Source: Pseudomonas sp. DY-1 (GTDB taxonomy: Bacteria; Pseudomonadota; Gammaproteobacteria; Pseudomonadales; Pseudomonadaceae). Taken from it: DNA of 64,000 nucleotides. A program made the position numbers and the translations under genes. The DNA lies in NCBI RefSeq assembly GCF_003626975.1, contig NZ_CP032616.1, positions 1,116,001 through 1,180,000 of the forward strand, read 5' to 3'. Below, piece after piece: positions 32,188 through 49,398 of the stretch. A model generated the notes under the pieces. That model had not been told where the DNA came from, ran no database searches, and saw only the letters and a list, made by a program, of their open reading frames with translations. Position 1 is the stretch's first letter; each line of letters begins with the position of its first letter.

Positions 32188-34287
32188 TCAGAACCCGCTT
32201 TCCCTCAGCAATACCGCCGCTACATGGGTCAGGCCTTCGGCCAACAGGCTGCGGCGGTTGCCGTCGATCTGCAGATGGCCGCGGGTTTCGCGCAGGGTGT
32301 GCGGGGCGGCTTCAAGCTGCACCAGCACATGGAACAGCGGCGGCGTCGGCACCAGTTCCTTGCCCTGGCTGGCCACGGTGAGCGGGCCGCCGTAGCGGGA
32401 GGCGAGCATCGGGTGTTCGAGTTTGCTGACGCGGGTGCTGCCAATGGCCACCACCTTGCCGGGGATGGGCGTCGGCTGGCCTTCGGGATAGAAACTCACC
32501 GCGCTGCCTTGCACCAGACGCTGCACGTCATCCTGGTCGACGTAGGCATCCACCTGCCAGCGGCTCGGGTCCACCAGCATGCCGATGGGCTCGCGGCTGT
32601 GCACCCATTGGCCGGGGCGCCAGTCGGGGTCGAGGTCCAGCCAGCGCCCGGAGAAGGGGGCCTGGAGCTTGAGCCGGGCGATCTCCGAGCGTGCGGCACG
32701 GGCCTCCTCGAACTGCACGCGCAGGCGCTGGCGAGTGGCCAGGGCCTGGTCGGCGCCACCCGGGTCGGCGATCAGGCCGCCAAGGCGCGCCTCGTAGCTC
32801 TTCACGCTGGCTTCGCTACTGGACAGGCGCGACGAGATGTCCGGTTCCTCAAGGGTGACCAGGGTCGCGCCAGCCTCAACCTCACCGGCCGGATGAATGG
32901 CCTGCAAGCGCGCGGGGTAGGGCGCGAAAACACGCAATTGCTGCTCCGCGCGAGCGACGCCAAGCGCATGGATCTCGCTGCGCCAGGGCACCGCCAGGAG
33001 TAGCAGGAGCGCGGCCAGCACGCCCCACCAGAAGTACCTGCGGCTATTGTGGATGGCGGCTCGATTGGCCCACCAGTGTTTCAATTCGCGCGCTATCGGC
33101 ATGACGATGAACCAGGAGATTTCCACGGCGAACAGCAGTATCCCGAGCAGTTTGAAGAAGAGCAGGTAAACCGCCACGGCAATACCGAGGAACAGCACCA
33201 GGCGATAGACCCAGGTGACGATGGCGAACGCCACCAGGGCGCGGCGTTTACCGGGGCTGAAGGATTCCGGCCAGTCTTCGTCAATCCCTAGCAGCATGCG
33301 CCGCAGGGTGGTCCGGGCCAGGGCCGAAGAGCGCTCATGGAGGTTGGGGAAGTCCAGCAGGTCGGACAGGATGAAGTAGCCGTCAAAACGCATGAACGGA
33401 CTGGCGTTCAGGGCCAGCGACAGGACCCAACTGGTCGTGGCGAGGTAGAGCAGGGCGTTGCGCAACGGGCCGGGGTCGGACAGGGCCCAACCGAGTGTGG
33501 CGAGGCCCGCCAGGGCCAGTTCGGTGAGGATGCCCGCCGAGGCGATGGCCAGGCGTTGCCGGGAGCTGCGCAGCTTCCAGCTCTCACCGGTATCGGTATA
33601 GAGCATTGGCCAGAGCACCACGAAGGCGATGCCCATGTGCCCGACGCGAAGGCCGAGGCGTGTCGCCACCAAAGCGTGGCCGAGTTCGTGAAGGGTCTTG
33701 GCCAGGGCCAGCGCCAAGGCGAAGCTGACCAGCCCGGACGCGGAGAAGGATTCCACCACCGCCGTGGTGAAGGCGTCCCATTGTTGCAATACCAGTAGCA
33801 CGCCGATCACGCCCAAGGTCACCACCAGCACCCCGGTCAGTGGCCGGAACAACCAGTCCAGATAGCCCGCCAGGTGTTCCAGATGCCGTTGCGGGCGCAG
33901 CAACGGGATACGAAAGAACAGGTAGTGGTGCAGCCACCATTTCCAGTTGAGCCAGGCATTGCCTTCACTGCGGGACGCCAAGCGGGCGGCGGCATCCGGC
34001 GTCGGGCGCAACAGCTGGTGCTGTTCGAGGAACTGGCGGAGCTCCAGTACCTGCTCCACATCCGGGCGCAGTGGCGTCTGTTGCTGGATGTCCTGGCAGA
34101 TCCGTTGCGGCGTGTCTTCCCAGCGCAGCAGGCATTCGAACTCCAGCCAGCCAATGCGATAGAAGCGATTGATCACTGTGTCCTGGATCACCCACGCCGG
34201 CTCGCCGTCGCTGCCGGGCGCGGTCTCCAGCAGCCGCAGGTCTTCGCGCAAAGGCGGGAGCGGCATCTGCGCCGCGTCGACGATCAC
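32188..34287 (-). CDS. RRE-like / M50 site-2 metalloprotease / HlyD adaptor fusion
   Basis: A protein of 699 residues. Residues about 28-95 resemble a PqqD/RiPP-recognition winged helix (WVIQDTVINRFYRIGWLEFECLLRW, then CQDIQQQT). An M50 membrane protease follows, with zinc motif HELGH at 200-204 and the third-ligand segment NASPFMRFDGY at 294-304 (Asp302), among about eight membrane segments. From about residue 440 it is a HlyD-type adaptor (lipoyl-like halves, coiled coil 510-570, beta barrel). It overlaps the preceding gene by 4 bp. A role in recognising, cutting or exporting the giant protein of the operon is inference; related fusions occur in peptide export loci (YydH type). Confidence 0.85.
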   Translation of the reverse strand: MIVDAAQMPLPPLREDLRLLETAPGSDGEPAWVIQDTVINRFYRIGWLEFECLLRWEDTPQRICQDIQQQTPLRPDVEQVLELRQFLEQHQLLRPTPDAAARLASRSEGNAWLNWKWWLHHYLFFRIPLLRPQRHLEHLAGYLDWLFRPLTGVLVVTLGVIGVLLVLQQWDAFTTAVVESFSASGLVSFALALALAKTLHELGHALVATRLGLRVGHMGIAFVVLWPMLYTDTGESWKLRSSRQRLAIASAGILTELALAGLATLGWALSDPGPLRNALLYLATTSWVLSLALNASPFMRFDGYFILSDLLDFPNLHERSSALARTTLRRMLLGIDEDWPESFSPGKRRALVAFAIVTWVYRLVLFLGIAVAVYLLFFKLLGILLFAVEISWFIVMPIARELKHWWANRAAIHNSRRYFWWGVLAALLLLLAVPWRSEIHALGVARAEQQLRVFAPYPARLQAIHPAGEVEAGATLVTLEEPDISSRLSSSEASVKSYEARLGGLIADPGGADQALATRQRLRVQFEEARAARSEIARLKLQAPFSGRWLDLDPDWRPGQWVHSREPIGMLVDPSRWQVDAYVDQDDVQRLVQGSAVSFYPEGQPTPIPGKVVAIGSTRVSKLEHPMLASRYGGPLTVASQGKELVPTPPLFHVLVQLEAAPHTLRETRGHLQIDGNRRSLLAEGLTHVAAVLLRESGF

Positions 34288-35624
34288 AGCCCGGTCCAGG
34301 CACGCAGCGCGGCGTATGGCCGGCGCAGCAGGTAGTAGCCCAGCACCACCCGCTCGCCGTAGAGCTTGGCGGTACCGTGCAGGCCGAGGCGGGCGTGTTC
34401 CGGCTGGCCTTCGATGCTGGCGAGCAGCCGGTAGGCCACTACACCCTCTTCATTGGCGCGGGCCTGGTAGCTGGTTTCCAGCACCTGGCCTTTTAGCGGC
34501 GAGAGTGGGTAGGCGGTGAGAAACAGGGTGACCTCGGCGCCGGGTTCCAGGGCGATGGCGTCGGCCACCGGCAGCTGGATCAGCATGGCCGGTTGCGCTG
34601 GGTCGGCCACTTGGAGAATGCGTTCCCCGGTTGCCACCGGTTTGCCCAGCCAATCGTTGGGGTCGCTGAACACAGCCACGCCAGCGCGCGGCGAGCGCAC
34701 GCGGGTACGTTGCAACTGCGCCTGGACCGCCGCCAGTTCGGCTCGGCGCTGCTGGGCGCGGCCGTTGAGCAAGGTCAGCTCGCTCTTGCTCTGCGGGTTG
34801 TCGAATGCGCGCTGGCTGGCCGCCATCAGCTCGGCATCGGCTACCGCCACTTCCTTGCCGAGCACTTCGGCGCGGCTTTTCAGGGTGGTTTCGTCGAGGG
34901 TGAAGAGCAGGGTGCCTGCTTCCACGGGTTGATTCGGCCGCACCTGCATGCGCTCGATCACCCCATCGATGGGGGAGCTGATGACCTCCGCCTGGCGCGA
35001 GACGATCTCAGTCGGCGCCAGCGCCGTTTGCCGCACCGGCACCAGCATCAGCGCAGCGGCCACCGCCAGTGCGGCCAGGAGCTGGCGCTTGCTGGGGCGC
35101 CAGCCGAACAGACGGCGCCGGCCAGCGAAGGCGGCCCAGCAGTGGGCCCAGGTCTGCCAGAGCCCATCGGTCAGCGGCGCCAGGGATTCGGCCGGCGGCG
35201 CATCCAGCAGGAACAGCACCAGCCCCAGGCGCGTGCCTTCGCGGTCATGCAGGGGAATGCACCAGAGTCCGGACGGCCACCACTCGGCCCAGCCTTCGGC
35301 GATGTCCTCGGGGGGCTCCACGGCCTCGCGGGCCAGCCAGCATGGCTGGGCGTCGGTCAATTGGGTGTTCAGCCAGCGGCTGGCGCGGCGCAACCAGACC
35401 AGGTAGGGCGAATCTTCGCTGGGCCGGGCAAGGCCGGATACGCAGAGCAGTTCCAGGTCCGCGCCGCGCTGCGCGAGCACCAGTGCCTGGTGGTAACGCA
35501 GCAACGCATAGGGGTCATTGGCAATGGAGAAAGCCAGGGCATTGAGCGAGTCGGCGGCCAGGGCGCGGTCGCGCAGTGCGGCCAGGGCAAGCAGCAATTG
35601 CGGGTGCGGCAGGCGGTCATTCAT
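34284..35624 (-). CDS. HlyD-family adaptor with N-terminal GAF-like domain
   Basis: A protein of 446 residues. Residues about 15-165 look like a cytoplasmic GAF-type domain (LNALAFSIANDPYALLRYHQALVLAQRG, LWCIPLHDREGTRLGLVLFLLD). One membrane segment (181-197) follows, then a periplasmic HlyD adaptor (EVISSPIDGVIERMQVRPNQPVEAGTLLFTLDE, coiled coil, RSPRAGVAVF). The layout would let a cytoplasmic signal or cargo meet the periplasmic adaptor. It overlaps the upstream adaptor gene by 8 bp and the downstream M50 fusion by 4 bp, so translation is coupled. The GAF call rests on pattern only. Confidence 0.82.
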   Translation of the reverse strand: MNDRLPHPQLLLALAALRDRALAADSLNALAFSIANDPYALLRYHQALVLAQRGADLELLCVSGLARPSEDSPYLVWLRRASRWLNTQLTDAQPCWLAREAVEPPEDIAEGWAEWWPSGLWCIPLHDREGTRLGLVLFLLDAPPAESLAPLTDGLWQTWAHCWAAFAGRRRLFGWRPSKRQLLAALAVAAALMLVPVRQTALAPTEIVSRQAEVISSPIDGVIERMQVRPNQPVEAGTLLFTLDETTLKSRAEVLGKEVAVADAELMAASQRAFDNPQSKSELTLLNGRAQQRRAELAAVQAQLQRTRVRSPRAGVAVFSDPNDWLGKPVATGERILQVADPAQPAMLIQLPVADAIALEPGAEVTLFLTAYPLSPLKGQVLETSYQARANEEGVVAYRLLASIEGQPEHARLGLHGTAKLYGERVVLGYYLLRRPYAALRAWTGL

Positions 35625-36396
35625 GGGCTTGCGGGAATCGTGCGGTGCCGCTCATGCCGGCGATCAGTTCCGGGTGCTCGGCATCGAGCCGTGCTTCCAG
35701 TTCCACGGTCTGGGCCACGGCGTCGACCCGCGAGTTGATGGCGCTGATATGGGCGCCATAGGACTTGCCGGTTTCCAGGATGCTGACCTCCAACGGCATG
35801 CCGGGCTTGAGCTGTGGCAACAGGCTCGACGGCACGTTGAGGCGCACCTTGAGGGCGCCGTCGCTGACCAGGTCGAACAGCGGCGTTCCGGCCGCCACCG
35901 TCTGGTAGGGCTTCACGTGGACCTTGGCGACCCGTCCGGAGAAGGGCGCTTGTATCCGGCAGTAGCCACTCTGGGCCTGGGCCAGGGAGCGTGCGCCTTC
36001 GGCCTTCTGGACTTCGGTGTTGGCCATGGCCACTTCCAGGTCGCCTACCGCATCCAGCTTGCGCAGATTGCGTTTGGCATCGAGGTTCTGCCGGGCCATG
36101 GTCAGCTCGGCGGCGGCAACCTTGGCGCGGGCGTGGGCTTCCTCGCAATTGAGCTGGGCCAGCAGGGCGTCCTTTGCTACCGGCTGGCCGAGGGAGGCCT
36201 TGAGCTCGCCGAGGGTGCCGTTCATCTGGCTGGAGAGCGTGGTCTCCAGGTCTGAACTGAGCAGTACGCGGATGGCGCCGGGGTCCTCGGCAGGGTTGGC
36301 CGGCGGCAGGTCATCGGCAAAGGCGACGGGTAATGGAAAAGACAGGACAAGGGACGCAAACAGGGCGAGCAGACTGCGCTCAGCGTTGTACGGCAT
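35617..36396 (-). CDS. Periplasmic adaptor (HlyD/RND membrane-fusion type)
   Basis: A protein of 259 residues from the ATG at 36396 (AAGGAA upstream; a longer frame reaching 36612 is an artefact inside tolC). Signal peptide MPYNAERSLLALFASLVLSFPLPVAFA, then a lipoyl-like half (MNGTLGELKASLGQPVAKDALLAQLNC), a helical hairpin (95-160), the second lipoyl half (IQAPFSGRVAKVHVKPYQTV) and a beta barrel. It is shorter than typical adaptors. It lies 10 bp after tolC and would link the inner-membrane parts to TolC in the periplasm. Confidence 0.87.
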   Translation of the reverse strand: MPYNAERSLLALFASLVLSFPLPVAFADDLPPANPAEDPGAIRVLLSSDLETTLSSQMNGTLGELKASLGQPVAKDALLAQLNCEEAHARAKVAAAELTMARQNLDAKRNLRKLDAVGDLEVAMANTEVQKAEGARSLAQAQSGYCRIQAPFSGRVAKVHVKPYQTVAAGTPLFDLVSDGALKVRLNVPSSLLPQLKPGMPLEVSILETGKSYGAHISAINSRVDAVAQTVELEARLDAEHPELIAGMSGTARFPQAHE

Positions 36397-36406
36397 GCGG
36401 TGTTCC

Positions 36407-37912
36407 TTATTTGCTGACGAGAAGTTTGCTGTGTTCCTGTTCACCCAGGGTGCGCTGGATTTCCCGGGCGAGCGTCTGGATGTCGTGCTTTTCGATCTGC
36501 TCCGGGAGGGTATCCAGGCCAATGGAGTTGTACAGCCGACCCCAGGCCGCCTGGGCGTCGGAGTAGGCGGCCTCGCGCTGGTAGCGCGAAAGCAGGTAGC
36601 GGCCTTCGGCACGGATCAGCTCCAGTTCCGAACCATAGGAGGTCGTACGTGCGGCCTGGGCGTAGTCCAGCAGGCTCTGGTCCACCCGCAGGCTCTGGTC
36701 GGCGAATTCCACTTCCTGGCGCGCCAGCTGATAGCGCAGGGTGCCCACCCTTACCTGAGTGAGGATGGCCATGGACAGTGCGACACGGCGCATGTCGTCG
36801 GTCTGCTCCTGGGATTCGGCAGCCGCGTTCAGCGACGGCAGTTGCAGCAGGCGCAGCAGATTCAGCGACACCTGCAGGCCGGTCTCGGTCCAGTGACTGT
36901 TGTAGAGGAATTTGTTGGAGTCGTACTTGTAGCCGAAGTCCAGGCTGACGTTAGGCCAGAGCTGGGCCTTGGCGATCTTCAGGTCATTCTCGTTGACCCG
37001 CTTGCGGTACCACTCCTCCATGATTTCCGGACGGTTCTCCAGGGAGATCTGTTCCAGCCGGTTGATGTCCTGATTCAGTTCCGGCAGTGGCGGCTCGGCC
37101 TGGTCGGCGAGGATCAGCTTCGAGCCTGGCGGCAGCGACATCAGCGCGGACAGTTCGGCTTGAGCGAACTCCAGGTCCTGGCGGCGTACGGTGAGCAGGT
37201 AGATCGAGTCGAGCAGGGCGCGCTGGTAGGACAGCACTTCCTGGCGCGGCAGCAGGCCCTTGGTCTCGGCCTCGCGGGCGGAAAGCAGTGCCTGGTGAGT
37301 ACGTACCAGAAGGCGGTCGACCTGGGGCATCAGGCGCTGGGCACCGACGGCGCGCCAGTAGGCGTTGCGCACGTCCTGCAGGACGTTCTGCGCCACCTTG
37401 CGGCGGCGTTCCTCGGCCATGAGGATCTGGTCGCTCTTCTGCTGGGTACGGTAGTAGGCGACGCCGAAGTCCAGCAGGCTCCAGGACAGACCCAGGCCGT
37501 AGAGTTCGCGGTAGCGCTCTTCGGAGGTGGAAGCCCGCAAGCTTTCTTCACGGTCCTCGATGCCGATGGAGGTGCCGCCGGAGTCGTTGTTACGCCCGGC
37601 ATATCCGGCCGAGGCGACCAGGCGCGGCAGCATCTCGTGACTGGAGACGTCGCGCAGGTCACTGGCCAGGGCGCTTTCCATGAGCTTGAGGCGATAGTCC
37701 AGGTTGTATTTCAGGGCCCGGGCCGCGGCCTCGTAGAAGGTGATCGGGGCGGTCACCGGCTCCTGATTGGAATACATCTGTGACTGATCGCGAATGATGC
37801 GCTGCCGGCTTTCCTCATCCGTGTACTCGTGGGGTTTCATGGCCGAGCAGGCACCTAGCAGCAGGCTGGAGGCGATGGCGGCGCTGAGGAGCGTTTGGGG
37901 CGTTCTTGGCAT
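36407..37912 (-). CDS. TolC-family outer-membrane channel lipoprotein
   Basis: A protein of 501 residues. A lipoprotein signal, SSLLLGAC with Cys22, means the mature protein is lipid-anchored like OprM. Repeated TolC alpha-hairpin elements follow, e.g. VLQDVRNAYWRAVGAQRLMPQVDRLL and LVRTHQALLSAREAETKGLLPRQEVL. The channel would give the giant protein or another product passage through the outer membrane. It lies 20 bp downstream of the giant gene and 10 bp before the adaptor gene, clearly one operon. Confidence 0.9.
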   Translation of the reverse strand: MPRTPQTLLSAAIASSLLLGACSAMKPHEYTDEESRQRIIRDQSQMYSNQEPVTAPITFYEAAARALKYNLDYRLKLMESALASDLRDVSSHEMLPRLVASAGYAGRNNDSGGTSIGIEDREESLRASTSEERYRELYGLGLSWSLLDFGVAYYRTQQKSDQILMAEERRRKVAQNVLQDVRNAYWRAVGAQRLMPQVDRLLVRTHQALLSAREAETKGLLPRQEVLSYQRALLDSIYLLTVRRQDLEFAQAELSALMSLPPGSKLILADQAEPPLPELNQDINRLEQISLENRPEIMEEWYRKRVNENDLKIAKAQLWPNVSLDFGYKYDSNKFLYNSHWTETGLQVSLNLLRLLQLPSLNAAAESQEQTDDMRRVALSMAILTQVRVGTLRYQLARQEVEFADQSLRVDQSLLDYAQAARTTSYGSELELIRAEGRYLLSRYQREAAYSDAQAAWGRLYNSIGLDTLPEQIEKHDIQTLAREIQRTLGEQEHSKLLVSK

Positions 37913-37932
37913 GGTCGATCCTTGTTCCTTGC

Positions 37933-40900
37933 TTATTCGGTTGACCGGTTGCCCAGCGCGCGCAGGCGCTCGGCGGCCTCGCGTAACTGGGCACGGAAGC
38001 CGGGGGCGGTACGGGAGTCGGAAGGCGGCGGCAGCTGGGCATCGCCCTGGGTCAGGTTGTCCGGGGTGGTGGCGAACACCGAGGGGTCGGGCAGCAGGCC
38101 GTCGGCGCTCAGGCTGGTTCGGCCGTGGCGACCGAGAATCCAGGCCAGGTCCAGGTCGCTGCTGGCACTGCTATCGCGCACGGCGTGGGAGACGAACTGG
38201 CCCTTGACCTGGCCGAAGTGCGCGCTCAGGGTTTCGCTCTCGATTTCCGGCTCCAGCCCCAGCCGCAGATCGCTGCCGTCAGCGTCCCAGCCGGACAACA
38301 TCAGCTGGCGATCATTCCGTTCCACCACCGGGCCGACGAAGACCACCGGGTCCACGCCGGGCAGAGGCAGACGCCGGAATGGATCGAGATCGCCACGGTC
38401 CTCGTGTGGGCCAATGGGGTCATGGTTGGGAGCGGGGATGAAGGGCGCGGCGATATCCAGGTCTATCACCAGTTGCGCCAGGTCGGTTGCACCGGCGCGG
38501 TCGCCGAGCGTGTAGGTGAAGACGTCCTGCAGGACGCGGCCGAGGCCGGCGGCCCTGAGCACTTCGGGGTTGGTCAGGTCGATGCTGTAGGTGTAGCTGC
38601 CGTCGGCATTGATCACCAGGGTGCCGTAGCGACCGGCGATGGGTTGGCCGACGAGCCCGGTCGTGCCGCTGCCATTCTCCGCACCGCTGCGGATGCCCAC
38701 CACTTGCAACTGTTCGCCACCGTCCACGTCCGAGTCGTTGGGCAGCACATTGCCCGTAGCCTGGGGCGCCGGGGTCTGGTCGCTGGCGACGTTGCTGTCG
38801 TCCCGGGCGACCGGATTGTCGTTGGCACCCTGGATCAGGATGTTCAGGCGGGCTTCCGATTGTGCACCTGTCGTGTCGCGCATGACGTAGGTGAAGGACT
38901 CGCGCAGGGATTCACCGGCAGTGCGCAGGGCTTGCACCAGCGGGTTGGTGTTATCCAGCACATAGACATAGCTGCCATCGGCATTGAGGGTCAGCGTGCC
39001 GTAGCGACCCACCAGGGCCTGTCCCGCAAGAGCGCCGCTGCCCAGCTCGCTGGTGGCCGAAAGGACCTGCCGGGTCTCGCCATTGGCGACGCTGTCCACG
39101 TCCTGGTCGTTGGTCAGGACATTGCCGGTAGGGTCGCTGCCAGGGATGTCGTTGCCCACGCCGCCTGCCTCGACCGCCGTGGTGTCGTCATCCTGGGCGA
39201 CCGGCGTGTCGTTGCGACCATCGATGGTGATGCGCAGCTCGGCGGTATCGGTGGCCAGATGCGTGTCGGCAAGCGTGTAGGTGAAGGTGTCCACCAGGGT
39301 CTGGCCACTGATGCGCAGCGCCTGGACTACAGCCAGGCTGTTGTCGACCACGTAGGTCCAGCTGCCATCGGCATTCATCGTCAGATCGCCGTAGAGGCCG
39401 CGCAGCACCGTGCCGACGGTCCCGCTGGTGCCACTGCCGGCTTCGCTGCCGGTGCGAATGGCCAATACCGACAGCTGCTGCCCTTCGAGATCCGTGTCGT
39501 TGCTCAGCACATTGCCGCTGGGATTCACGCCCGGTACGTCGTTGTTCAAGCCGCCGGCCTCGATAGCGGTGGCCTCGTCGTCGAAGCCATCCGGCACGTC
39601 GTTGCGGCCGACGACGATGATCGACAGTTGCGCCAGGTCGGTGAGGCCGCCCAGGTCGGTGACCTCATAGGTGAAGTGATCCACCAGGGTGTCCAGCAGG
39701 TCGAGGGCGAGCACGTCCGGGTTGGAAATGTCGATGGTGTAGTGGTAGCTGCCGTCGGCATTGATCACCAGGGTGCCGTACTGGCCTACCAGCACGCTGC
39801 CGACCGAGCCGGCGGTGCCGCTGCCGTTCTCCGGCCCCGTACGGATACCGGTGACGGTGAGCTGGTCGCCCTGGTCGATATCGGTGTCATTGGGCAGGAC
39901 GTTGCCGCTGGGGTTGAGCACCAGGCCGTCGCCATTGTCGGTGACGCCGACGTTCACGTCGTCCTGCGCCACCGGGCTGTCCCACGCGCCTTGGATTGTG
40001 ATGCTGAACTGAGCGATATCCTCGGCACCTGCGGTATCGCGCATGCGGTAGGAGAAGATTTCCTGCAGGCTGTCTCCCGGTTTGAGGGCCTGGACCGCAG
40101 CAAGGTTGTTGTTCACCACATAACTGTATTGGCCGCTGGCCGAGACTGTCAGGATTCCATAGAGACCCGCAATGACCTGGTTGCCGGCAACGTTGGTGAA
40201 GGTGCCGCCTTCAGCTTCGCTACCGGTACGAATGCCGTTGATGGCCTTGGTATCGCCAGCATCGACGTCACGGTCATTGTTGAGAAGGTTTCCATTTGGG
40301 TTCACTCCCAGCGTGGCGTTGTCGGTTCCGCCGGCTTCCACTGCAATGGCTCCATCGTTGACGGACAGTGGGTTATCGTTGACGCCACGGATGGTGATTG
40401 TCAGGTCCGCGATGCTGTTTGAGCCCGCTTCGTCGCGTGTGGCGTAAGTGAAGATTTCGACGAGGGTGTCGCCGTTGACACGCAGGGCCTGAACCTGCGG
40501 ATCGTTGTTATCGACCACGTAGGTGTAGCTGCCGTCGTCATTGAGCGTCAGGGTGCCGTAGCGACCTGCGAATGGGACACCGATCGTACCCAGGGTGCCT
40601 CCCTGGCGGATACCGATGACGGTGACGGTCTCGCCGAACTGATCCACATCAATATCGTTGTCCAGCACATTGCCGCTGGGGTCGAAACCGGGGGTCCCAT
40701 TGTTCAGCCCGCCGGCTTCGATCGCTGTCGCGAAGTCGTTATTGTCCTCGCGAGCGTCATTGGCGCCTTGGATGGTGATGCTCAGCCAAGCGATGTCGGT
40801 GGTGCCAGAGGCATCAATCAGGGTGTAGTTGAATCCGTCCAACAGGGTGTCCGCTGCAGTGCGAAGCGCCTCGACTTCCGGCATGTCATTGTCCAGGCGA

Positions 40901-43900
40901 TAGCTGTAGCTGCCGTCGGCGTTCAGGGTCAGCCATCCATAGGTGCCGCGCAATTCGGTACCGAGGATGCCAGTCGTGCCTGCTCCTTCGACAACACCAG
41001 TGCGCACCGACGCCACCGCCCGGGTCTCGCCATAGTCGATGGGGTCGAGGGCGCTGCCGTCGACGTCCGTATCGTTGTCCAGGACATTGCCGGTCGGGTC
41101 AACGCCGGGAATCTGGTTGTTCCGACCGCCGGCTTCCACTGCCGTAGCGGTGTCGTTGGTCGCCACCGGGTTGTCGTTGCGGCCAAGGATGAGGATCACC
41201 AGTTGCGCTGATTCAGGTGCTTCCTGGCCATCGGAAATGGCGTAGGTGAAGCGCTCTATGAGGAAGTCCGAGAGCAGGCGCAGGGCCTCCACTTCGGGAT
41301 TGGTGTTATCCAGGACGTAGCTGTAGGTGCCATCGGCGTTCAGGGTCAGGGTGCCGTACTGGCCCGCGAAGGCCTGGCCGATCACGCCGGTGGTTCCCAG
41401 TTCGTCGTTGCTGACGGAGACCACCGTGATCGGGTCGCCGTCAGGGTCGACATCGAACAGCAGAGCGTCGCCCGTGGGGTCGATGCCTGCCTGGCCGTTG
41501 GCGACGCCGCCGCGTTCGACGGCGATGTTGAAGTGATTCTGAGCCACCGGCGGGTCGTTTACGCCGCGGACAGTAATGACCAGTTGCGCCAGGTCGGTGA
41601 AACCGTTGGTGTCGATGATCTGGTAAGTGAAGGTCTCGGTCAGCGTCTGGCCAGCGAGCAGGGCCTGGACCGTGGGGTTGGCGCTGTCTACGTCATAGGT
41701 GAAGGAACCGTCAGCACCCATGCGCAGGAGGCCGAAGTTGCCCAGTAGCAAGGTGGCGCCGGTGGTGCTGGTGGAACCGGTCGCTACTCCAATCAGCACC
41801 CCGCCGGCGGTTTCCAGGCCCGAACGCACGCCATTGACCCGGAGCAGGGTATTGGGCCGGTCGGCCGCGTCGACGTCGTTGTCCACGCCGTTGCCACCGG
41901 GCTGGGTGACCGGGCCGGGGCGGCTGGGGAAGCGGATGACGTTGCCGCTGGGGTTGCTTTCACCGATGGCAGCGGGGCCGGAGCCGGCCTGGGCCACGGC
42001 CTGGTCATCGCTGGCCAGGGGGTTGTCGTAGTTGCCACGAATGGTGATGCGCAATTCCGCGAGGTCGTTCAAGCCAGCCGTATCAGTGACCTGGTAGCTG
42101 AAGAACTCGGTCAGCGTGTCGTTGGGCCCCAGCCGTTGCACGGCGGTGGCGTTCTCGTTCAGCACATAGGTGTACGTGCCATCGGACGCAATGGTCAGGG
42201 TGCCGTAAGTGCCGATGATGTTTACGCTGCCACCAGTGGGGACGATGGTCAGTACGCCCTGCGCGAGCTCACGCAGGGCGCGCGCGCCGGTGACTGTCTT
42301 GGTTTCGCCATAGTCGATCGGGTCCGCCGGGTTTTCGCCGCCGTCCACATCGAAGTCGTTGTCCAGCACATTACCGGTGGCGTTGGCACCGGGAGCGGGG
42401 AAGCCGGCCGGCGGGGTATCGCCGGGGTTACCGATATCGGTGTTGTTGACGCCACCTTTCTCGATGGCTGTGCCTACGTCATTGACACCCACTGGGGTGT
42501 CGTTGGCGCCCTGGATGACCACCGAGAAGTTGGCTGAGGATTGCAACGGTGGACCGCCCAGGCCGATGTCCGAGATCACGTAGGTGAAACTCTCGTTCAA
42601 CTGGTCGCCCGCCTGGCGCAGCGCCTGCACCTCGGGATTGGCGTTGTCGATGATGTACTGGTAGGCGCCATTGGACTGCAGCACCAGCTTGCCGTAGCGC
42701 CCGAACACCTCCACCGATCCCAGCGCTGGAAGCGGAACCACTACGCCGAGTGGGGAGGTGACCGATACGACGAATATCTGGTCGCCGTTGGTACCGATAT
42801 CGATGTCGGTATCGTTGCTCAGCAGATTGCCGCGCGGATCGATGCCCGGGAGGCGGTTGGCGGTACCGCCAGCTTCCACCGCCGTGGCGTTGTCGTCCAC
42901 GGCGTTCGGCGCGTCGTTCACCGGATCGAGGCGGATCACCAGGAAGTCGCTGTCGGTGCGGGCGTCCGCCAGTTCGCCGGGAATGCCATTGCCGTTGAAG
43001 TCGCCGTAGTTGCCCAGGTCGTTGGTCAGCACCTCGAGGAAATCGACGCCGTTGAAGTCGAGGTTGCCCAGATAGCTGACGCCGGCCAGGGCCGCGTTGA
43101 TGTCGGCGATCCGGCCCAGCAGGACCAGGTTCGTCGTCCCGGCCCCGGTCACCGTTACGCCAGTGGTCGGACCGGTGAGTGTGAGCGTGCCGTGAAGAAC
43201 GTTGAGGTTGACCTCGATGGCGCGGCTGGCGACGACCGGATCGCGCTCGGCATCGATGTCGCTGACGCTGATGCCGGAAATCGCCAGGGGCGTGTCTTCT
43301 CGTCCCTGCTGGAAGCCGGGCAGGGTATTGACCGGCGCATCGTTGAGCTCGACATAGCCGGAGTTGGCCTGCTGCGTGACACCTTCGCCAAGGGTCACCT
43401 GGACCTGGCCGAGGGTTCCGGCATCGGTGTCGATGCGAATCCGCAGTTCGCCGAACTGGGCAATGCTGTTCACAGTGTTCGGTGCATCGATGCGGAACAG
43501 GCCGCTGGGTAGCACGCCGAAGGAAAAACGGCCGTTGGCGTTGGTAGTGGTGGTGAAGGTCTTGTCGTCGCCACTACCGAACACGCCGTCGTTACCGGCC
43601 CAGATCAGGTTGATGGTCTGGTTGGCGATGGCCAGTTCGTACGCGGGGGTGCCCGGAAACGGGTCCGGATCCGGTGTGGCGTCGTTGGGGGCGGTGGCGG
43701 CCGTGCCCGTATCGTTCCACAGGGTGCCGCTGATGATCCCGAGGCCGGCGCCTTCGCGGAGCACGTAGTTGTTCAGGGTGGTGCTATCCGGACCGGGGCC
43801 ATTGGAGCCGTTGCGCTCGCCGGTAGCGGTGCCATCGGGGCCGACCGAAGTGCCCCCCCAGCTGGTGAAGGTTTCCGGCAGGCTGCTCCAGGTCAGGTTG

Positions 43901-46900
43901 GCGTCGGTACTGGCGATGCTTGCGTTATTGGGCACCTGGACGCTGTAGACCACGCTGACGCTGGTGCCGGGGTCGATCCGCGCGATGTCCACTGTCACGC
44001 CGCCCGTGGTGCTGAAACTGACACCGGCCGGCAGGTTGCTCGGGCCGTAGGTGTTGGCACCGATGGTGATGCTGAGCAGGGTGTAGTTGCTGCCGGTGGG
44101 GAAGCCGTCGGTCAGGCGGACATCGTAGGCCGGCAAGCTGCCGTTGGCGGTGAAATCGACGGTGACGGTGGCGGTGCCCAGGCTGCCACCCGGGTTCGCG
44201 TTGAAGTCGGTGACGGTCTTGTCGAGGTTGGCGAAACCGGGTTCTACGATGCGCTCGAACAGGGTATCGCTGGTGGTACGGATGATGCCGTTGACGCGAT
44301 CATGCACCGTGACGCCGAGCTGGACGGCGGACTGGTTGCCCAGGCTGTTATCCACGCGGGCATTGAACTCGAACACAATCCCTTCCAGGTCGTCATCGTT
44401 ACCATCGTTGCCCCCGGCGAATCCCTCGTTGGTGATGTTGCCCAGGTTGAGGGTCACCACCTGGTTGCCATTGCCGTCGGTGCCGAGCGTGACGTAGATG
44501 GGATTCAGCACCCCGGTTGGGGCCGGTCCGGACAGATTCGGGGTGATGAGCTGGGCTTGCGGGCTGTCTTCGTTGCCGATGATCTGCAGGGTGCCGCTGG
44601 TGATCAGGTCGCCGAGGCTGGTGACCAGCCCGCCGTCGGAAATGAACCCAATACGCATGGTGCTGAGGTCATCCACCGTCAGCCCGTCGTCGAGGGTGAC
44701 AACCAGCTGGTAGTTGGGGTTGATGCCCTCGGGAATCAGGACGGCGGTGCGGTAGCGGATGATCTCGCCAACGGCCACGACCTCGATCGGTGCATTGGTG
44801 GGGTTGGGGGCGGCCGTATCGTTCAACCCCCCCACGCGGGACAGGCGTATGCCCTGGGCGATGGGAAAAATAAGAATGCTGTCGCGCTGGTAGTCGTTGA
44901 GCACGCCGGTGTTGAGCAGGCCGTCCTGGCCGGTGCGTTCGCCGGCCGGATCAGCGGCACCGTTGGTGTTGTTGCCGTTGAGGCTGGTCCAGCGCACATC
45001 GGCGAGGTTGTCGAAGCGGGCCACCGAGGCACCGGTGGCATTGACTACGCCACTGATGCGGATGGTGATGGTGCCGCCCTTGGCGATGTCGACGTTGCCG
45101 GTGTTGATCAGCGTACGGCCATTCGGGTCGAGGACGAAGCTGCCCCTGATATCCGTGCTGACCCCGCCTACGGTATAGGTCACGCTGACCAATGTGAGCT
45201 GGTCCAGTTCGGTGGGCAGCTGGCTGGAGAAGGCGATGTCGAAGGCGTCGTAATCGCTACCGGCGTTGCCATTGGCGATGGTGATGCTGAAGTCGACCGG
45301 GTCGCCTTCATCGAAGCCCAGGCCCGGGTTGGTGATCAATTGCTGGCTGAGCTGCAGGGTGGGTTCCTGAATGGTGATCGCGGGCTTGGTGCCGGTCAGG
45401 TTCACATCGCGATTCAGCGGCGCGCTGCCGTTCGGGGTGTTCCCATCGGGGTCGCTGTAGCTCAGGCGGGCGTCGTTCTGGCGCACGCCACCGGCCTGGT
45501 TGCCGAGCACGTTGCTGGCCACCAGCCGCACGCGGATGACGAAGCTGTTGTTGCCGATGTTGTTGTCGCCCGTGGCGCCGGAGGCGCTGAAAATGAAGCG
45601 CGCATCGGCGCCGTCGGCACCCAGGGTGCCGGTGGGGGCGGTGAGACTACCGATGGTGACCGTGCCGGCGAAGTTGGCGGTCAACGCGCCGCCAGCGGTG
45701 GTAATCAATTGGTAGCCCTGGTTGGCATTGAAGCTGGTGTCCAGGCGCAGGCCGGGCGGGATCAGGTCGTCGATGCGCAAACTCTGGGTAGTGCCTTCAG
45801 GCAGCGTGACGATGATGTCGTAGAGCATGCTTTCGCCGACTACCAGGTTCGCACCGGTGGTGTGAGCGGCACTGGAATCGCCATTGTCCAGGCTGCCGCC
45901 GGCGAAGTTCTTGCTGATCACCGGCGCTGCGACCTGCTGGCTGGCGAGGTCGGAGAGCGGCACCGGCACGAAGTTCTGCCCACCCTCGGCGCTGGCGTAG
46001 TGGGTCAGCTCGGCAGTGCTTTGCAGGGTGGCGCTGGCGCCGATGGCCGCCGCCACCTGCACGTCATAGGTAATGACCACGACGTTGGCGCCGCTGTTAT
46101 CCGCCGCGGTCCCGGGGCGGCCGGCCAGCAGGGCGCCAGCTCCGGGTGAGTCGATGAAGGTGATGGTGTTGGTGGCGTTGTCCACGGTGAAGTGGGTGCC
46201 GGCTATCAGTCGGGTGCCGTCGCCGCGATAGATCAGCAGGTTTGAACTGGCCAGGTTGCCACCCACGAAGGACAGGCCCGGCGGCAGGCTGATGCGGGTG
46301 CTGACGTCATAGGCGTTGCCGCCCCCATGGTTCTCGATGGCGGTGGCCAGGCGCAGGCGGTCGCTGGCATCGATGCCGGTGACATTGCCATTGACCGCGA
46401 GGATATCGGTGATGCTGCCGCTGAAGGGCACGCCGGTGGTGCCCGGCGCGTTCCAGGCGCCGGTGGTGCCGGTCACCGTGCCATGGCTGGTGGAAACCAC
46501 GCCGTGGCTCATGGTGAGCACCGGTTCGGCCACCGAGGCGATCAGGGTCACGTCATCGGTGGTGAGCAGGACGCTCTTGTCCAGGGTACGGGTCTGGCTG
46601 GATTCGCCCAGCACGTTGAAGGCGCGCTGGTCGGCGAACGGCTGGTCGCTGACGGTGAGGGTGAAGTCGATGGCGACGCGGCTGCCGTTGATACCGGGGT
46701 TCACGTAGTCAGCGAAGGTGAATACCAGCGAATTGCCGGCGCCGATGGTGACCGAGATAGGGCTGTTGGGGTTGGTATTGCCCGTGGCCAGGCGCCAGAT
46801 GGCATTGGGATCGACGCCACTCAGGTCGAACAGCGGCAGCGGCAGGTAGGCGGTGAGCTTGAAGTTCTCGTAATCGCCGGTGACCAGGTCGTAGGTCAGG

Positions 46901-49398
46901 CGGAAGGTGACGGTATCGCCTGGCCGCAATTCGGTGCCGGGCGCCGGCGCACCTCCACCGTTGAGGCCGGCCAGATCGATCTGCACCTGGCTGGTAGGAA
47001 TGGTGCTGACGGTGTTGGAGGTGTCGCTTTCGTCGAAACCGCTGAGGTTGTTCGGGTCGAACAGTATGGTGGCGGTCACCGTGGCGTTATTGCCGACCGA
47101 GTCGCCTTCGTTGATTTCGCTGTGGGGCGCGCCGGCGGGCGGCGTGTAACTTTGGGCAACCCGAGCCTGATAACCGATTACCGCCAGGGTGGCACCTTGC
47201 AGCAGGTCATCGAAGGCCAGGTCACCGTTGAGCCAATCGCGGATACCGAATGCGTTGGCCAGCGACTGGGCAATGTCGAACTGCATCGAGGTGCTGCCGT
47301 CGGCATTGACCACGCTGCTGCTGACCAGGGCGATGGTCTGGGTCACTCCGTTCTGGGTGATCGTCAGGGTCGCGGTGCCGGCTATCAGGTTCTGCCCGTC
47401 GCCCAGCTGGTCCGATACCAGGAAGCTGCCGTTGCCGAGGAAGGTCTTGCCGAAGGCGAAGTAGTCCGACAGCGCGATGTTCAGCCTGTAGTCCAGGACA
47501 TCCCCCGGACTGATGCCGGGGCTGCCGACATCGGTGCGTACGCTGACCTGCTTCTGCAGGGTGATGGACTTGGCGACGAAACTGACGTCGTTGCCGGTGC
47601 CGTCGAAGGCGATCTGGCCATTGGGAGCATCGCGCGGGTCGAGGGGTATCCAGTTCCCCGCGGCCTCGGGCCTGGCAAACGTGATGGTGACATCGTCGCC
47701 GGTGGCGGCGTTGAGCACCGGCACACCATCGGCGTCGTCGTCCGGAACGAAGAACTGCACGTTGGTGGTCGTCGGTGCGGTCAAGGTCGCATAGCTGACA
47801 GTGAACTCGCTGATGTACAGGTCGTTGCTGAGGTCACCGTCGCTGTTCTGCGCCAGGATGCGCTGAATGAACGTCGGGTCGGTGACTGTATTGCCGTTGT
47901 GAAGGGTGATCGAGGTGATGGTGCCGCCGCCACCGGGTGTGATGGCGGTCACAATGACGTTGTCCGGTACCGGCTGGGTCAGTACCACGTTGGTCAAGGT
48001 CTGGGAGTCGGCCGGATTGATGGTGACGTCCAGTTCGCGGCCATAGTTCGGTCCGGTCGCGGTTTCGCCTTCGGGCGTGGTGATCACCTGGTCGAAGGTG
48101 ATTACCGTCGGATGCACCACGAAGCTGTCGGCGTTGGCCGATGGCTCCAGAATGCTGGGGTCGGTGGCCGGGTTGTTCAGCGAGTCATTGCCGTACTGGA
48201 AGCCGCTGCGCGCACGGATGGTCAGGTCCGGCGTCGTCCCGGAGAAGGAGAAGTCGGTGTCAGCCAGGTCGCTCAGAGAAGCCGTCACTTGCACGGTGAT
48301 GGGCGGCTGGCCCAGGGTGACACTGGCGAACGGCAGTTCTACCACCACCATCTGGTCGCCGGCACGCATGCCGAAGTCTGCGGCGTTGATGATCAGCGGC
48401 TTGCCGTCGGTTCCTACTGCCAGCGGGTGGCTGGCCTGGCCGTTGGCGTCGAAGGTCAGCACGTGGGCGGTGAGGTTCTGCCCGAGGTAGGTGGCGGAGA
48501 CGAAGGTGACACCGTCGTCTATTTCCGCGCCAGCACCATCCTTGCCCGTAGCCGGGAAGAACAGGTCGATGAAGGGCGCGTAGCCCGTATCGGTGGTGAT
48601 ATTGGTAAACGTAACGTTGAAGCTGAAGGTTTCTCCCAGCAGCACATCCGCGCCACCGGTGAGGGTGGTGGTCGGCCCGGCCGCCAGCAGCCGGTCGTAG
48701 CCAGCGGTGGCCGCGACAGCCAGCGCGATGGGCTTGTCGATGTCGCCGCGGGCGACTTCCAGCTCCCAGTCGCCGCCCGCGCGGGCACTGCCGGTGTCAT
48801 CGCTGGAGGCTGCGACGTCGGCGCCGGTCCAGCGCGCCAGCTCGTTGACCAGGGTGCGCCCGGCGCTGCCTTCGCCGACCTTGCAACCATAAAGCTGGAT
48901 ATCGGCGCCTTCGCTGAGCGACTGGCTCCACTGGCTGAGGGGCTGGGCGAACTGGTCGATGTTGTCGGCGGTCAGGGTGGTCTTGCCGAGGGTGAACTCG
49001 CCTGAAGCACCGTGGGACAGGATCTGGATGGAATCCACCTGGCCAAGCTGGGCCAGTGCAGCAGAGATGGCGGCGAGGCCATCCTGGTTGGCTTCCACCA
49101 CCAGTACTTCGACATTGCCTGGGAGCTGCGCCGTCAGCTTCTCGCGACCGTCTATACGGCTGTCGAGCACCAGCAGGTGGCGGCTTGCGGAAGGTTGCTG
49201 GCCGGGCTCGCTGCGGGCGTCGCTGGGCGTGGCGTGATCGGCGACGGGTTTGCCGGCGTCGCCAGTGTCCTGGTGCTGCTGGTCCGCTGCGGTGGCGGCT
49301 GCACCGTCGAAGAGAATGCGGGGCTCCAGGGCCAGGGCACGGCGCTGGGGTCTGAATGCGGGCGGCACAAAGGTACCGGGCTTGGTATCAATATCCAT
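37933..49398 (-). CDS. Giant surface/exported protein: LEPR motif, DUF4347, adhesin-like repeats, 11 VCBS repeats
   Basis: A protein of 3821 residues. The N-terminus has no classical signal peptide but carries LEPRILFDGAA at 24-34. DUF4347 spans about 74-240 (HLLVLDSR, ILSHGASGEF, IQLYGCKVGEG). Residues about 250-1880 are DUF11-like beta domains with many Asn/Thr. An SdrD-B-like domain is near 1885-1990 (SGTLWNDTG) and a cadherin-like stretch near 2016-2160. Eleven VCBS units follow at about 2162-3645 (NDNPVA-DD, GNVLxNDxDVD, YGTLTLNADGSYTYxxDN). The tail (3646-3821) is Pro-rich and lacks RTX nonapeptides. It is first in an operon with TolC and three HlyD-type genes. A secreted or cell-surface adhesin is likely; the export route is inferred. 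Confidence 0.93.
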   Translation of the reverse strand: MDIDTKPGTFVPPAFRPQRRALALEPRILFDGAAATAADQQHQDTGDAGKPVADHATPSDARSEPGQQPSASRHLLVLDSRIDGREKLTAQLPGNVEVLVVEANQDGLAAISAALAQLGQVDSIQILSHGASGEFTLGKTTLTADNIDQFAQPLSQWSQSLSEGADIQLYGCKVGEGSAGRTLVNELARWTGADVAASSDDTGSARAGGDWELEVARGDIDKPIALAVAATAGYDRLLAAGPTTTLTGGADVLLGETFSFNVTFTNITTDTGYAPFIDLFFPATGKDGAGAEIDDGVTFVSATYLGQNLTAHVLTFDANGQASHPLAVGTDGKPLIINAADFGMRAGDQMVVVELPFASVTLGQPPITVQVTASLSDLADTDFSFSGTTPDLTIRARSGFQYGNDSLNNPATDPSILEPSANADSFVVHPTVITFDQVITTPEGETATGPNYGRELDVTINPADSQTLTNVVLTQPVPDNVIVTAITPGGGGTITSITLHNGNTVTDPTFIQRILAQNSDGDLSNDLYISEFTVSYATLTAPTTTNVQFFVPDDDADGVPVLNAATGDDVTITFARPEAAGNWIPLDPRDAPNGQIAFDGTGNDVSFVAKSITLQKQVSVRTDVGSPGISPGDVLDYRLNIALSDYFAFGKTFLGNGSFLVSDQLGDGQNLIAGTATLTITQNGVTQTIALVSSSVVNADGSTSMQFDIAQSLANAFGIRDWLNGDLAFDDLLQGATLAVIGYQARVAQSYTPPAGAPHSEINEGDSVGNNATVTATILFDPNNLSGFDESDTSNTVSTIPTSQVQIDLAGLNGGGAPAPGTELRPGDTVTFRLTYDLVTGDYENFKLTAYLPLPLFDLSGVDPNAIWRLATGNTNPNSPISVTIGAGNSLVFTFADYVNPGINGSRVAIDFTLTVSDQPFADQRAFNVLGESSQTRTLDKSVLLTTDDVTLIASVAEPVLTMSHGVVSTSHGTVTGTTGAWNAPGTTGVPFSGSITDILAVNGNVTGIDASDRLRLATAIENHGGGNAYDVSTRISLPPGLSFVGGNLASSNLLIYRGDGTRLIAGTHFTVDNATNTITFIDSPGAGALLAGRPGTAADNSGANVVVITYDVQVAAAIGASATLQSTAELTHYASAEGGQNFVPVPLSDLASQQVAAPVISKNFAGGSLDNGDSSAAHTTGANLVVGESMLYDIIVTLPEGTTQSLRIDDLIPPGLRLDTSFNANQGYQLITTAGGALTANFAGTVTIGSLTAPTGTLGADGADARFIFSASGATGDNNIGNNSFVIRVRLVASNVLGNQAGGVRQNDARLSYSDPDGNTPNGSAPLNRDVNLTGTKPAITIQEPTLQLSQQLITNPGLGFDEGDPVDFSITIANGNAGSDYDAFDIAFSSQLPTELDQLTLVSVTYTVGGVSTDIRGSFVLDPNGRTLINTGNVDIAKGGTITIRISGVVNATGASVARFDNLADVRWTSLNGNNTNGAADPAGERTGQDGLLNTGVLNDYQRDSILIFPIAQGIRLSRVGGLNDTAAPNPTNAPIEVVAVGEIIRYRTAVLIPEGINPNYQLVVTLDDGLTVDDLSTMRIGFISDGGLVTSLGDLITSGTLQIIGNEDSPQAQLITPNLSGPAPTGVLNPIYVTLGTDGNGNQVVTLNLGNITNEGFAGGNDGNDDDLEGIVFEFNARVDNSLGNQSAVQLGVTVHDRVNGIIRTTSDTLFERIVEPGFANLDKTVTDFNANPGGSLGTATVTVDFTANGSLPAYDVRLTDGFPTGSNYTLLSITIGANTYGPSNLPAGVSFSTTGGVTVDIARIDPGTSVSVVYSVQVPNNASIASTDANLTWSSLPETFTSWGGTSVGPDGTATGERNGSNGPGPDSTTLNNYVLREGAGLGIISGTLWNDTGTAATAPNDATPDPDPFPGTPAYELAIANQTINLIWAGNDGVFGSGDDKTFTTTTNANGRFSFGVLPSGLFRIDAPNTVNSIAQFGELRIRIDTDAGTLGQVQVTLGEGVTQQANSGYVELNDAPVNTLPGFQQGREDTPLAISGISVSDIDAERDPVVASRAIEVNLNVLHGTLTLTGPTTGVTVTGAGTTNLVLLGRIADINAALAGVSYLGNLDFNGVDFLEVLTNDLGNYGDFNGNGIPGELADARTDSDFLVIRLDPVNDAPNAVDDNATAVEAGGTANRLPGIDPRGNLLSNDTDIDIGTNGDQIFVVSVTSPLGVVVPLPALGSVEVFGRYGKLVLQSNGAYQYIIDNANPEVQALRQAGDQLNESFTYVISDIGLGGPPLQSSANFSVVIQGANDTPVGVNDVGTAIEKGGVNNTDIGNPGDTPPAGFPAPGANATGNVLDNDFDVDGGENPADPIDYGETKTVTGARALRELAQGVLTIVPTGGSVNIIGTYGTLTIASDGTYTYVLNENATAVQRLGPNDTLTEFFSYQVTDTAGLNDLAELRITIRGNYDNPLASDDQAVAQAGSGPAAIGESNPSGNVIRFPSRPGPVTQPGGNGVDNDVDAADRPNTLLRVNGVRSGLETAGGVLIGVATGSTSTTGATLLLGNFGLLRMGADGSFTYDVDSANPTVQALLAGQTLTETFTYQIIDTNGFTDLAQLVITVRGVNDPPVAQNHFNIAVERGGVANGQAGIDPTGDALLFDVDPDGDPITVVSVSNDELGTTGVIGQAFAGQYGTLTLNADGTYSYVLDNTNPEVEALRLLSDFLIERFTYAISDGQEAPESAQLVILILGRNDNPVATNDTATAVEAGGRNNQIPGVDPTGNVLDNDTDVDGSALDPIDYGETRAVASVRTGVVEGAGTTGILGTELRGTYGWLTLNADGSYSYRLDNDMPEVEALRTAADTLLDGFNYTLIDASGTTDIAWLSITIQGANDAREDNNDFATAIEAGGLNNGTPGFDPSGNVLDNDIDVDQFGETVTVIGIRQGGTLGTIGVPFAGRYGTLTLNDDGSYTYVVDNNDPQVQALRVNGDTLVEIFTYATRDEAGSNSIADLTITIRGVNDNPLSVNDGAIAVEAGGTDNATLGVNPNGNLLNNDRDVDAGDTKAINGIRTGSEAEGGTFTNVAGNQVIAGLYGILTVSASGQYSYVVNNNLAAVQALKPGDSLQEIFSYRMRDTAGAEDIAQFSITIQGAWDSPVAQDDVNVGVTDNGDGLVLNPSGNVLPNDTDIDQGDQLTVTGIRTGPENGSGTAGSVGSVLVGQYGTLVINADGSYHYTIDISNPDVLALDLLDTLVDHFTYEVTDLGGLTDLAQLSIIVVGRNDVPDGFDDEATAIEAGGLNNDVPGVNPSGNVLSNDTDLEGQQLSVLAIRTGSEAGSGTSGTVGTVLRGLYGDLTMNADGSWTYVVDNSLAVVQALRISGQTLVDTFTYTLADTHLATDTAELRITIDGRNDTPVAQDDDTTAVEAGGVGNDIPGSDPTGNVLTNDQDVDSVANGETRQVLSATSELGSGALAGQALVGRYGTLTLNADGSYVYVLDNTNPLVQALRTAGESLRESFTYVMRDTTGAQSEARLNILIQGANDNPVARDDSNVASDQTPAPQATGNVLPNDSDVDGGEQLQVVGIRSGAENGSGTTGLVGQPIAGRYGTLVINADGSYTYSIDLTNPEVLRAAGLGRVLQDVFTYTLGDRAGATDLAQLVIDLDIAAPFIPAPNHDPIGPHEDRGDLDPFRRLPLPGVDPVVFVGPVVERNDRQLMLSGWDADGSDLRLGLEPEIESETLSAHFGQVKGQFVSHAVRDSSASSDLDLAWILGRHGRTSLSADGLLPDPSVFATTPDNLTQGDAQLPPPSDSRTAPGFRAQLREAAERLRALGNRSTE

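Follow-up and report, generated by a model that had tools for sequence, protein, structure and literature searches.

A Five-Gene Unit of Pseudomonas sp. DY-1 as a Candidate Export System for a Giant LEPR-Motif Protein Without an ABC Transporter of Its Own

Introduction

How can a bacterial protein of 3821 residues reach the outside of the cell if the operon encoding it supplies an outer membrane channel and several periplasmic adaptors, and no ATP-binding cassette (ABC) transporter? This question is raised by a unit of five genes, all on the minus strand, at positions 32188-49398 of a 64,000-nucleotide stretch of Pseudomonas sp. DY-1 DNA, in the following called the window. Judged from sequence and predicted fold, its parts are a giant protein carrying an N-terminal LEPR motif, a TolC-family protein, two periplasmic adaptors and a fusion protein, here called M50-HlyD, with no ABC protein among them. 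In M50-HlyD a recognition element known from ribosomally synthesized and post-translationally modified peptides (RiPP recognition element; RRE) is joined to an M50 site-2 protease and to a third adaptor domain. We assign a probability of roughly 60% to the reading that the five genes work as a self-contained unit which exports a single giant protein to the cell surface. That they export the giant is what we infer from gene content, conservation and predicted structure, and what appears to fit best is a mode of export separate from type I secretion. The initial annotation of the locus had suggested a distinct, M50-dependent export system. This interpretation is supported by the missing ABC protein and by co-occurrence across genomes, with the M50 protease not acting as the motor.

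Gene Organization and Absence of an ABC Transporter

The first gene encodes the giant protein (37933..49398), the presumed exported substrate, in which the open reading frame and domain scan reveal DUF4347 (E-value 7e-52) and 11 VCBS- or cadherin-like stretches. It is followed by a TolC-family outer membrane lipoprotein of 501 residues with an LLGAC lipobox read by eye (36407..37912), a short periplasmic adaptor of the HlyD/RND (resistance-nodulation-division) type of 259 residues (35617..36396), a 446-residue adaptor in which an N-terminal cytoplasmic domain, GAF-type by homology, precedes HlyD (34284..35624), and M50-HlyD with 699 residues (32188..34287). The start of the short adaptor was set at the ATG of MPYNAERS; an alternative longer frame from a GTG would begin inside tolC. 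The genes are separated by gaps of 20 and 10 bp and then overlap by 8 and 4 bp, and the gene set, its spacing and coordinates as well as the length and VCBS/DUF4347 content of the giant were all found as the initial annotation had described them. Pfam and NCBIfam models recognize HlyD in all three adaptors, M50 in M50-HlyD and OEP in the TolC-type lipoprotein.

An ABC protein had been reported missing from the locus, and this can be confirmed. Among 81 matches to the ABC model LssB in the genome, with 77 of 100 candidates scored, the nearest lies at C2:1076118-1076765, approximately 71 kb away, and the absence of an ABC gene from the operon is therefore solid. Plain type I secretion was rejected, since no ABC protein is encoded with the unit and none of the 117 M50-HlyD loci introduced below carries a LapB-like ABC gene at 250 bits or more, as judged with just two LapB-type references. 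In 14 of these loci there are ABC matches of lower score, at 60 bits or more.

Co-occurrence of M50-HlyD With LEPR and DUF4347 Proteins

The distribution of the components was determined in 114 gammaproteobacterial genomes drawn evenly, with all listed rows from different families. M50-HlyD was called at 90 bits, a cut-off set after the gap in the listed scores (99.5, then 44.5 bits) had been seen, and the NCBIfam model LEPR-8K at E ≤ 0.01, likewise set after inspection. By these measures M50-HlyD is present in 17 genomes, and DUF4347 over its cut-off and LEPR-8K in 11 each, of which 10 in both cases also carry M50-HlyD (Fisher p 3e-9 for either). Taken together, DUF4347 or LEPR-8K occurs in 14 genomes, 12 of them with M50-HlyD (Fisher p 9e-11).

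For gene neighborhoods, 117 loci were assembled from the best 80 of at least 591 loci of a scan of named genomes, 15 loci of the class sample, 20 loci hand-picked from a phylum search, mostly for being of the window's type (type A), and the two loci of the window genome; left out were the M50 gene of G100 on a short contig, L077 of G034, which has no M50-HlyD, and L078 on a second contig of G077. Neighboring genes were identified by tblastn. The GAF-HlyD adaptor was found near M50-HlyD in 114 loci, the short adaptor in 93 and TolC in 37, counts which are lower bounds because many stretches end early and TolC is diverse. An open reading frame with a LEPR motif is present in 19 of the 20 hand-picked loci, in both loci of the window genome, in 4 of the 15 class-sample loci and in 13 of the 80 scan loci, in many of which the N-terminus of the giant falls outside the fetched stretch. 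These 38 frames lie at a median distance of 147 bp from the nearest machinery gene, 33 of them on the strand of the M50 gene. The co-occurrence that the initial annotation had proposed to check is strong across genomes and also physical. The M50-HlyD unit as such is present in many Proteobacteria, often together with a SecA-like gene of its own. Locus L076 of genome G060 carries a highly diverged M50-HlyD and a short SecA-like gene, with no LEPR or DUF4347 match.

The M50-HlyD Fusion and Its Partner Adaptors

As far as sequence and predicted structure allow to judge, M50-HlyD is a single chain composed of an RRE of the leader-binding type, a site-2 protease with intact motifs and a MacA/HlyD-like adaptor. 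The RRE comprises residues 9-95 (34003..34263) and resembles lasso-peptide B1 proteins that were solved with their leader peptide. In the predicted model it shows three strands followed by three helices, the PqqD/B1 fold, and although Pfam makes no RRE call in the window protein, PqqD matches at E ≤ 1 were obtained for 6 of 13 relatives (best 7e-7). The earlier description as an RRE-like/M50/HlyD fusion thus holds, with the RRE backed by the predicted fold and these matches. The protease part contains the HExxH zinc site (residues 200-204; 33676..33690) and the NxxPxxxxD motif (residues 294-302; 33382..33408), both in membrane helices as expected for M50 proteases, and in the aligned rows these motifs are retained in 113 and 114 of 117 proteins, respectively. 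The HlyD/MacA-like domain spans residues 433-683 (32239..32991), and the chain ends in RESGF (32191..32205), which is invariant in an alignment of 14 sequences, namely 13 of the window's type and one paralogue from the second locus described below. A single predicted model holds RRE, RseP and MacA folds according to Foldseek; with the whole model as query the first 50 rows are all adaptors, and the RRE and RseP rows were seen on a second look. The closest named relatives, with 87-90% identity, are found in Pseudomonas sp. JM0905a and the P. resinovorans group.

The HlyD part of the 446-residue adaptor, which had been annotated as GAF-HlyD, is clear, whereas the GAF assignment is weaker, as the window protein itself yields no Pfam GAF match at E ≤ 1 and the match appears only in relatives, in 5 of 8 members of its alignment.

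The Giant Protein

The LEPR motif of the window giant, LEPRILFDGAA, occupies residues 24-34 (49297..49329) and is the presumed leader or recognition signal. As a match to LEPR-8K it is weak, with 13.5 bits in one scan and 19.8 in another, at a cut-off of 17. The consensus of the giants is LExRxx[LF], followed by D[GA]A in the window's clade (clade A) and by S[AG] in its sister clade B. The D[GA]A form occurs in all 22 clade-A giants found, none of which has a SecA-like gene nearby; among the giants with the S form, 12 have such a gene nearby and four (L159, L160, L075, and L184 of genome G293) do not (p 7e-7), of which the genome of L075 holds a SecA-like gene on another contig and that of L184 none. 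In a FastTree phylogeny of the M50 proteins, in which a long branch carries three rows that were probably translated in the wrong frame, clade A forms a single branch with support 99 and the D/S letter changes once, so that its match with SecA presence represents one evolutionary event. The view that it reflects many independent events was rejected, there being only two independent pairs on starred branches. Giants found later agree with the consensus only loosely: those of clade-B loci carry LEPRVLLNSD, MEPRLLLSAD, IEPRLLLSAD and LEDRILLSAE, that of Cupriavidus metallidurans has LEPRLLYDAA and that of Escherichia coli LESRQLFDGA; since four of these six escape the motif's regular expression, the expression undercounts. 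In genome G053 two LEPR matches (C1:429854 and 474843), one of them in an open frame of 13,848 amino acids, lie near one M50-HlyD/SecA locus.

DUF4347 follows at residues 75-238 (48685..49176), with a predicted cysteine protease fold resembling Tce1 and TcdB. His129-Gly130 and Cys172 are invariant, and the fold as well as the His/Cys pair are of the TcdB/Tce1 type. In Foldseek, Tce1 is followed mostly by flavodoxin-like and other Rossmann-like folds, interspersed with legumain and caspase-3, and of the 260 N-terminal residues that were modelled, those outside 71-200 are poorly predicted. The label "unknown function" of DUF4347 can probably be replaced by Tce1/TcdB-type cysteine protease fold, a reading for which an excerpt of PMC13323088 can be cited. 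For Burkholderia thailandensis, a DUF4347 protein raised in stationary phase is mentioned in an excerpt of PMC12322963.

At the C-terminus the segment APGFRAQLREAAERLRALGNRSTE (37936..38007) contains an [FL]xxQ[LVI] motif that recurs in type-A giants. Within the last 60 residues it is present in 16 of 21 clade-A giants, compared to a frequency of 3.6% in internal windows and of 9.6% in shuffled ends; the pattern was picked after the ends had been inspected, and several of these 21 giants, all with a complete end, are related. The motif could be a secretion signal or perhaps serves surface retention. The giants of L159, L184 and L192 end in a hydrophobic stretch resembling a membrane span, with PLW/PAW...DPL and an LF[DE] end; L192 is one of the five clade-A giants lacking [FL]xxQ[LVI], and L159 and L184 carry the S motif. 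RTX (repeats in toxin) repeats, noted earlier as missing, are indeed not found as an array: GGxGxD occurs twice in the 3821 residues of the window giant and 0-6 times per giant across 24 giants.

A SecA-like Gene in the Sister Clade

M50 as the motor was rejected because M50-family proteases are not known to hydrolyze ATP, and this led to a search for another motor and thereby to a SecA-like gene. At 150 bits or more it is present in 84 of the 117 loci and encodes approximately 660 amino acids. In 84 of 84 cases it follows M50-HlyD in the downstream direction and shares its strand, with a gap of at most 1283 bp that exceeds 300 bp in nine. In all five proteins tested the DEAD motor, preprotein cross-linking and P-loop domains were recognized and the wing/scaffold domain (PF07516) was not found at E ≤ 1; the window genome's own SecA has this domain (E-value 1e-71). 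Its sequence and position make this SecA-like ATPase the likely motor in clade B.

Extra SecA-like genes were found in 5 of 24 genomes searched (G107, G393, G081, G118, G250), all of which also carry a clade-B M50-HlyD. The window genome has one SecA only, and no further copy was found concealed in it.

Additional Copies of the Unit and Flanking Genes

The window genome contains a second locus (C2:2441140-2463095) with TolC, a DUF4347 giant of 4223 residues, M50-HlyD, the GAF-HlyD adaptor and the short adaptor. Its M50-HlyD is 37% identical to that of the window, and no ABC match lies inside the locus, the nearest listed being 14 kb away. The giant shows no LEPR-8K match in the genome scan, though its motif LEARMMFDGA is alike. 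Between giant and M50-HlyD four genes are inserted, described as tail-collar, GNAT, sulfotransferase-like and Asp/Asn-hydroxylase-like; tblastn finds all four matched in genome G166 (L180), and their products may serve to modify the giant or represent additional substrates.

On the E. coli plasmid NZ_CP081687.1 (L228, 2271-22022) giant, TolC, adaptor, HlyD and M50-HlyD follow in this order, flanked by IS5-like and IS1-like insertion sequence elements. The plasmid giant has 4459 residues with LESRQLFDGA and DUF4347 (E-value 3e-46). Of 5426 E. coli genomes, 25 match the plasmid unit, 22 of them over at least 80% of its length in one place; 19 of these 22 records are plasmid-sized and three chromosome-sized, and they are not independent since about half belong to one accession series. 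The five genes thus move as a group.

Ten open reading frames flanking the unit in the window were scanned. The Pfam matches are oxidoreductases, short-chain dehydrogenases/reductases, an MscS channel and a TPR/cytochrome-like protein, and by these domain assignments the matched genes are metabolic and channel genes unrelated to the unit.

Proposed Mechanism and Alternative Explanations

Export could proceed as follows. The RRE would bind the LEPR leader in the cytoplasm, an ATPase of the SecA family would provide the push, M50 would cut the leader in or near the membrane, and the adaptors together with TolC would form the conduit to the outside. In clade B the push would come from the dedicated SecA-like protein. 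In clade A, to which the window belongs, the housekeeping SecA would push with SecYEG as the pore; it is the simplest choice of motor for this clade, and this step is the weakest and least certain of all. As a guess, DUF4347 might cleave the giant itself and the C-terminal motif might hold it at the cell surface. That the leader is read in the cytoplasm is indicated by the dedicated SecA-like protein of clade B and by the RRE on the adaptor. The more specific form of the proposal, a one-step Gram-negative export in which the RRE reads the LEPR leader, a SecA-family motor docks on M50-HlyD in place of an ABC protein and the giant exits by adaptors and TolC, is put forward tentatively, at clearly less than even odds.

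Several observations weigh against an export unit driven in this manner. The window's clade has no motor gene of its own, and a single SecA (open frame >900 amino acids) was found in 19 of the 24 genomes, comprising 18 with a fetched type-A locus, the window genome included, and G293. The latter combines an S motif and a clade-B-like M50-HlyD with no second SecA in the genome (L184), and the clade-B giant of G250 has N in place of S. The agreement between the D/S letter and SecA presence counts as one event, not many. DUF4347 occurs without M50-HlyD in G034, in a frame of 249 amino acids, and LEPR without M50-HlyD in G076. Conversely, five of the 17 genomes with M50-HlyD have no LEPR or DUF4347 match at the thresholds used; three of them (G100, G038, G008) are 67-81% complete, in G112 a LEQRVVLDAA protein adjoins the M50 gene, and G060 is unexplained.

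Among the alternatives, a two-step route survives best, in which ordinary Sec takes the giant across the inner membrane and M50-HlyD and TolC are needed only to cross the outer membrane or to trim off an N-terminal segment left uncleaved. It gains from the missing motor gene in clade A and from SecY, which is single in five of seven clade-B genomes searched; in G081 none was found, and G250 has a second, partial match (C5:326165-326842; 100.6 bits). However, a simple hydropathy scan of the window giant detected no classical signal peptide, the best mean over 12 residues near the motif being 1.0 (0.75-2.11 in other giants) in a stretch that contains charged residues, and the dedicated SecA-like protein and the RRE speak for cytoplasmic recognition of the leader. 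We regard this route as unlikely.

A second alternative holds that the unit is a type I system whose own ABC gene has disappeared and which borrows a LapB/HlyB-type transporter encoded elsewhere, M50-HlyD merely processing or anchoring the substrate. The window genome does contain two LapB-type ABC genes, but each sits with its own TolC, HlyD and large repeat protein, one of at least 2271 residues with 20 cadherin-like stretches and the other of at least 1940 residues. As both sorts of loci are present, two kinds of giant-protein exporter seem to exist side by side in this genome. With at most 37 candidates scored per genome, an LssB/LapB-type ABC over the family cut-off is present in 6 of 17 type-A genomes and absent in 11, of which G134 and G404 have no match at E ≤ 1e-90 and at least G056, G128 and G167 show a full-length match of 563-604 bits, probably to another type I-like ABC protein. 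An unlinked ABC transporter as the normal exporter of the giant had been named beforehand in the initial annotation as a finding that would speak against it; one of the LapB type is thus not needed as a rule. Furthermore, no ABC ATPase over the Pfam cut-off is encoded on plasmid NZ_CP081687.1, LapB-like genes at 250 bits or more are missing from all M50-HlyD loci analyzed, and the recurrent signal-like motif stands at the N-terminus. As far as LssB/LapB-type transporters are concerned, such borrowing is quite improbable.

Finally, M50 proteases such as RseP are regulators and relatives of the partner adaptor contain a GAF domain, which suggests a signal input, and M50-HlyD might sense or release the giant by intramembrane proteolysis, as in a LapD/LapG-like switch, with export by another system, a possibility to which we give very little weight.

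Comparison With Known Systems

The export unit proposed here resembles a tripartite exporter combined with RiPP leader processing. With type I secretion of adhesins, as in LapA-LapBCE, it shares the TolC channel, the HlyD adaptor and a giant repetitive surface protein, but it has no ABC protein, its adaptors number three, one of them fused to RRE and M50, the shared motif is N-terminal and an RTX array is missing. Residues 30-395 of M50-HlyD, including most of the RRE, match the RiPP model daptide_HExxH (NF041824) with an E-value of 8e-47; nevertheless, the scores stay below the cut-offs of the RiPP M50 models, with 160.2 of 300 bits for daptide_HExxH and 28.6 of 225 for LiaK/YydH (NF058609). 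In contrast to M50 proteases of RiPP pathways, an HlyD adaptor is fused here and the partner is a giant protein and not a small peptide.

Accessory Sec export by SecA2 is alike in that a second SecA is clustered with its presumed substrate in clade B, and SecA2 models match the SecA-like proteins, below their cut-offs. These proteins differ in their length of about 660 residues without wing/scaffold domain, in their Gram-negative hosts and in their association with TolC and adaptors, and they are absent from the window's clade. Tce1 (PA0256) is an effector of the type VI secretion system with DUF4347, whereas here DUF4347 takes second place among the elements of a giant LEPR protein and is no cargo of that system. 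The NCBIfam entry LEPR-8K (NF012209), for the LEPR-XLL domain, likewise describes an N-terminal motif of very long proteins, by a short model intended for naming.

In the literature searched, from which subscription journals and preprints were mostly outside coverage, the module is not named and no export machine for LEPR-XLL proteins is described. By the tests made, the unit belongs to neither the type I nor the RiPP processing families, and it would be a new system assembled from known parts.

Implications

The LEPR motif marks very long proteins, with open frames up to the 13,848 amino acids of G053, for which an export route together with its parts is now proposed. If this proposal is true, a TolC conduit would receive its substrate from a source that is not an ABC, resistance-nodulation-division or major facilitator superfamily transporter, RiPP-style leader recognition would be joined to the secretion of giant proteins, and a trimmed SecA would work outside its usual setting. 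The recurrence of the five genes as a unit on E. coli plasmids suggests a minimal parts list provided by nature, and the proposed export route is testable in common laboratory pseudomonads.

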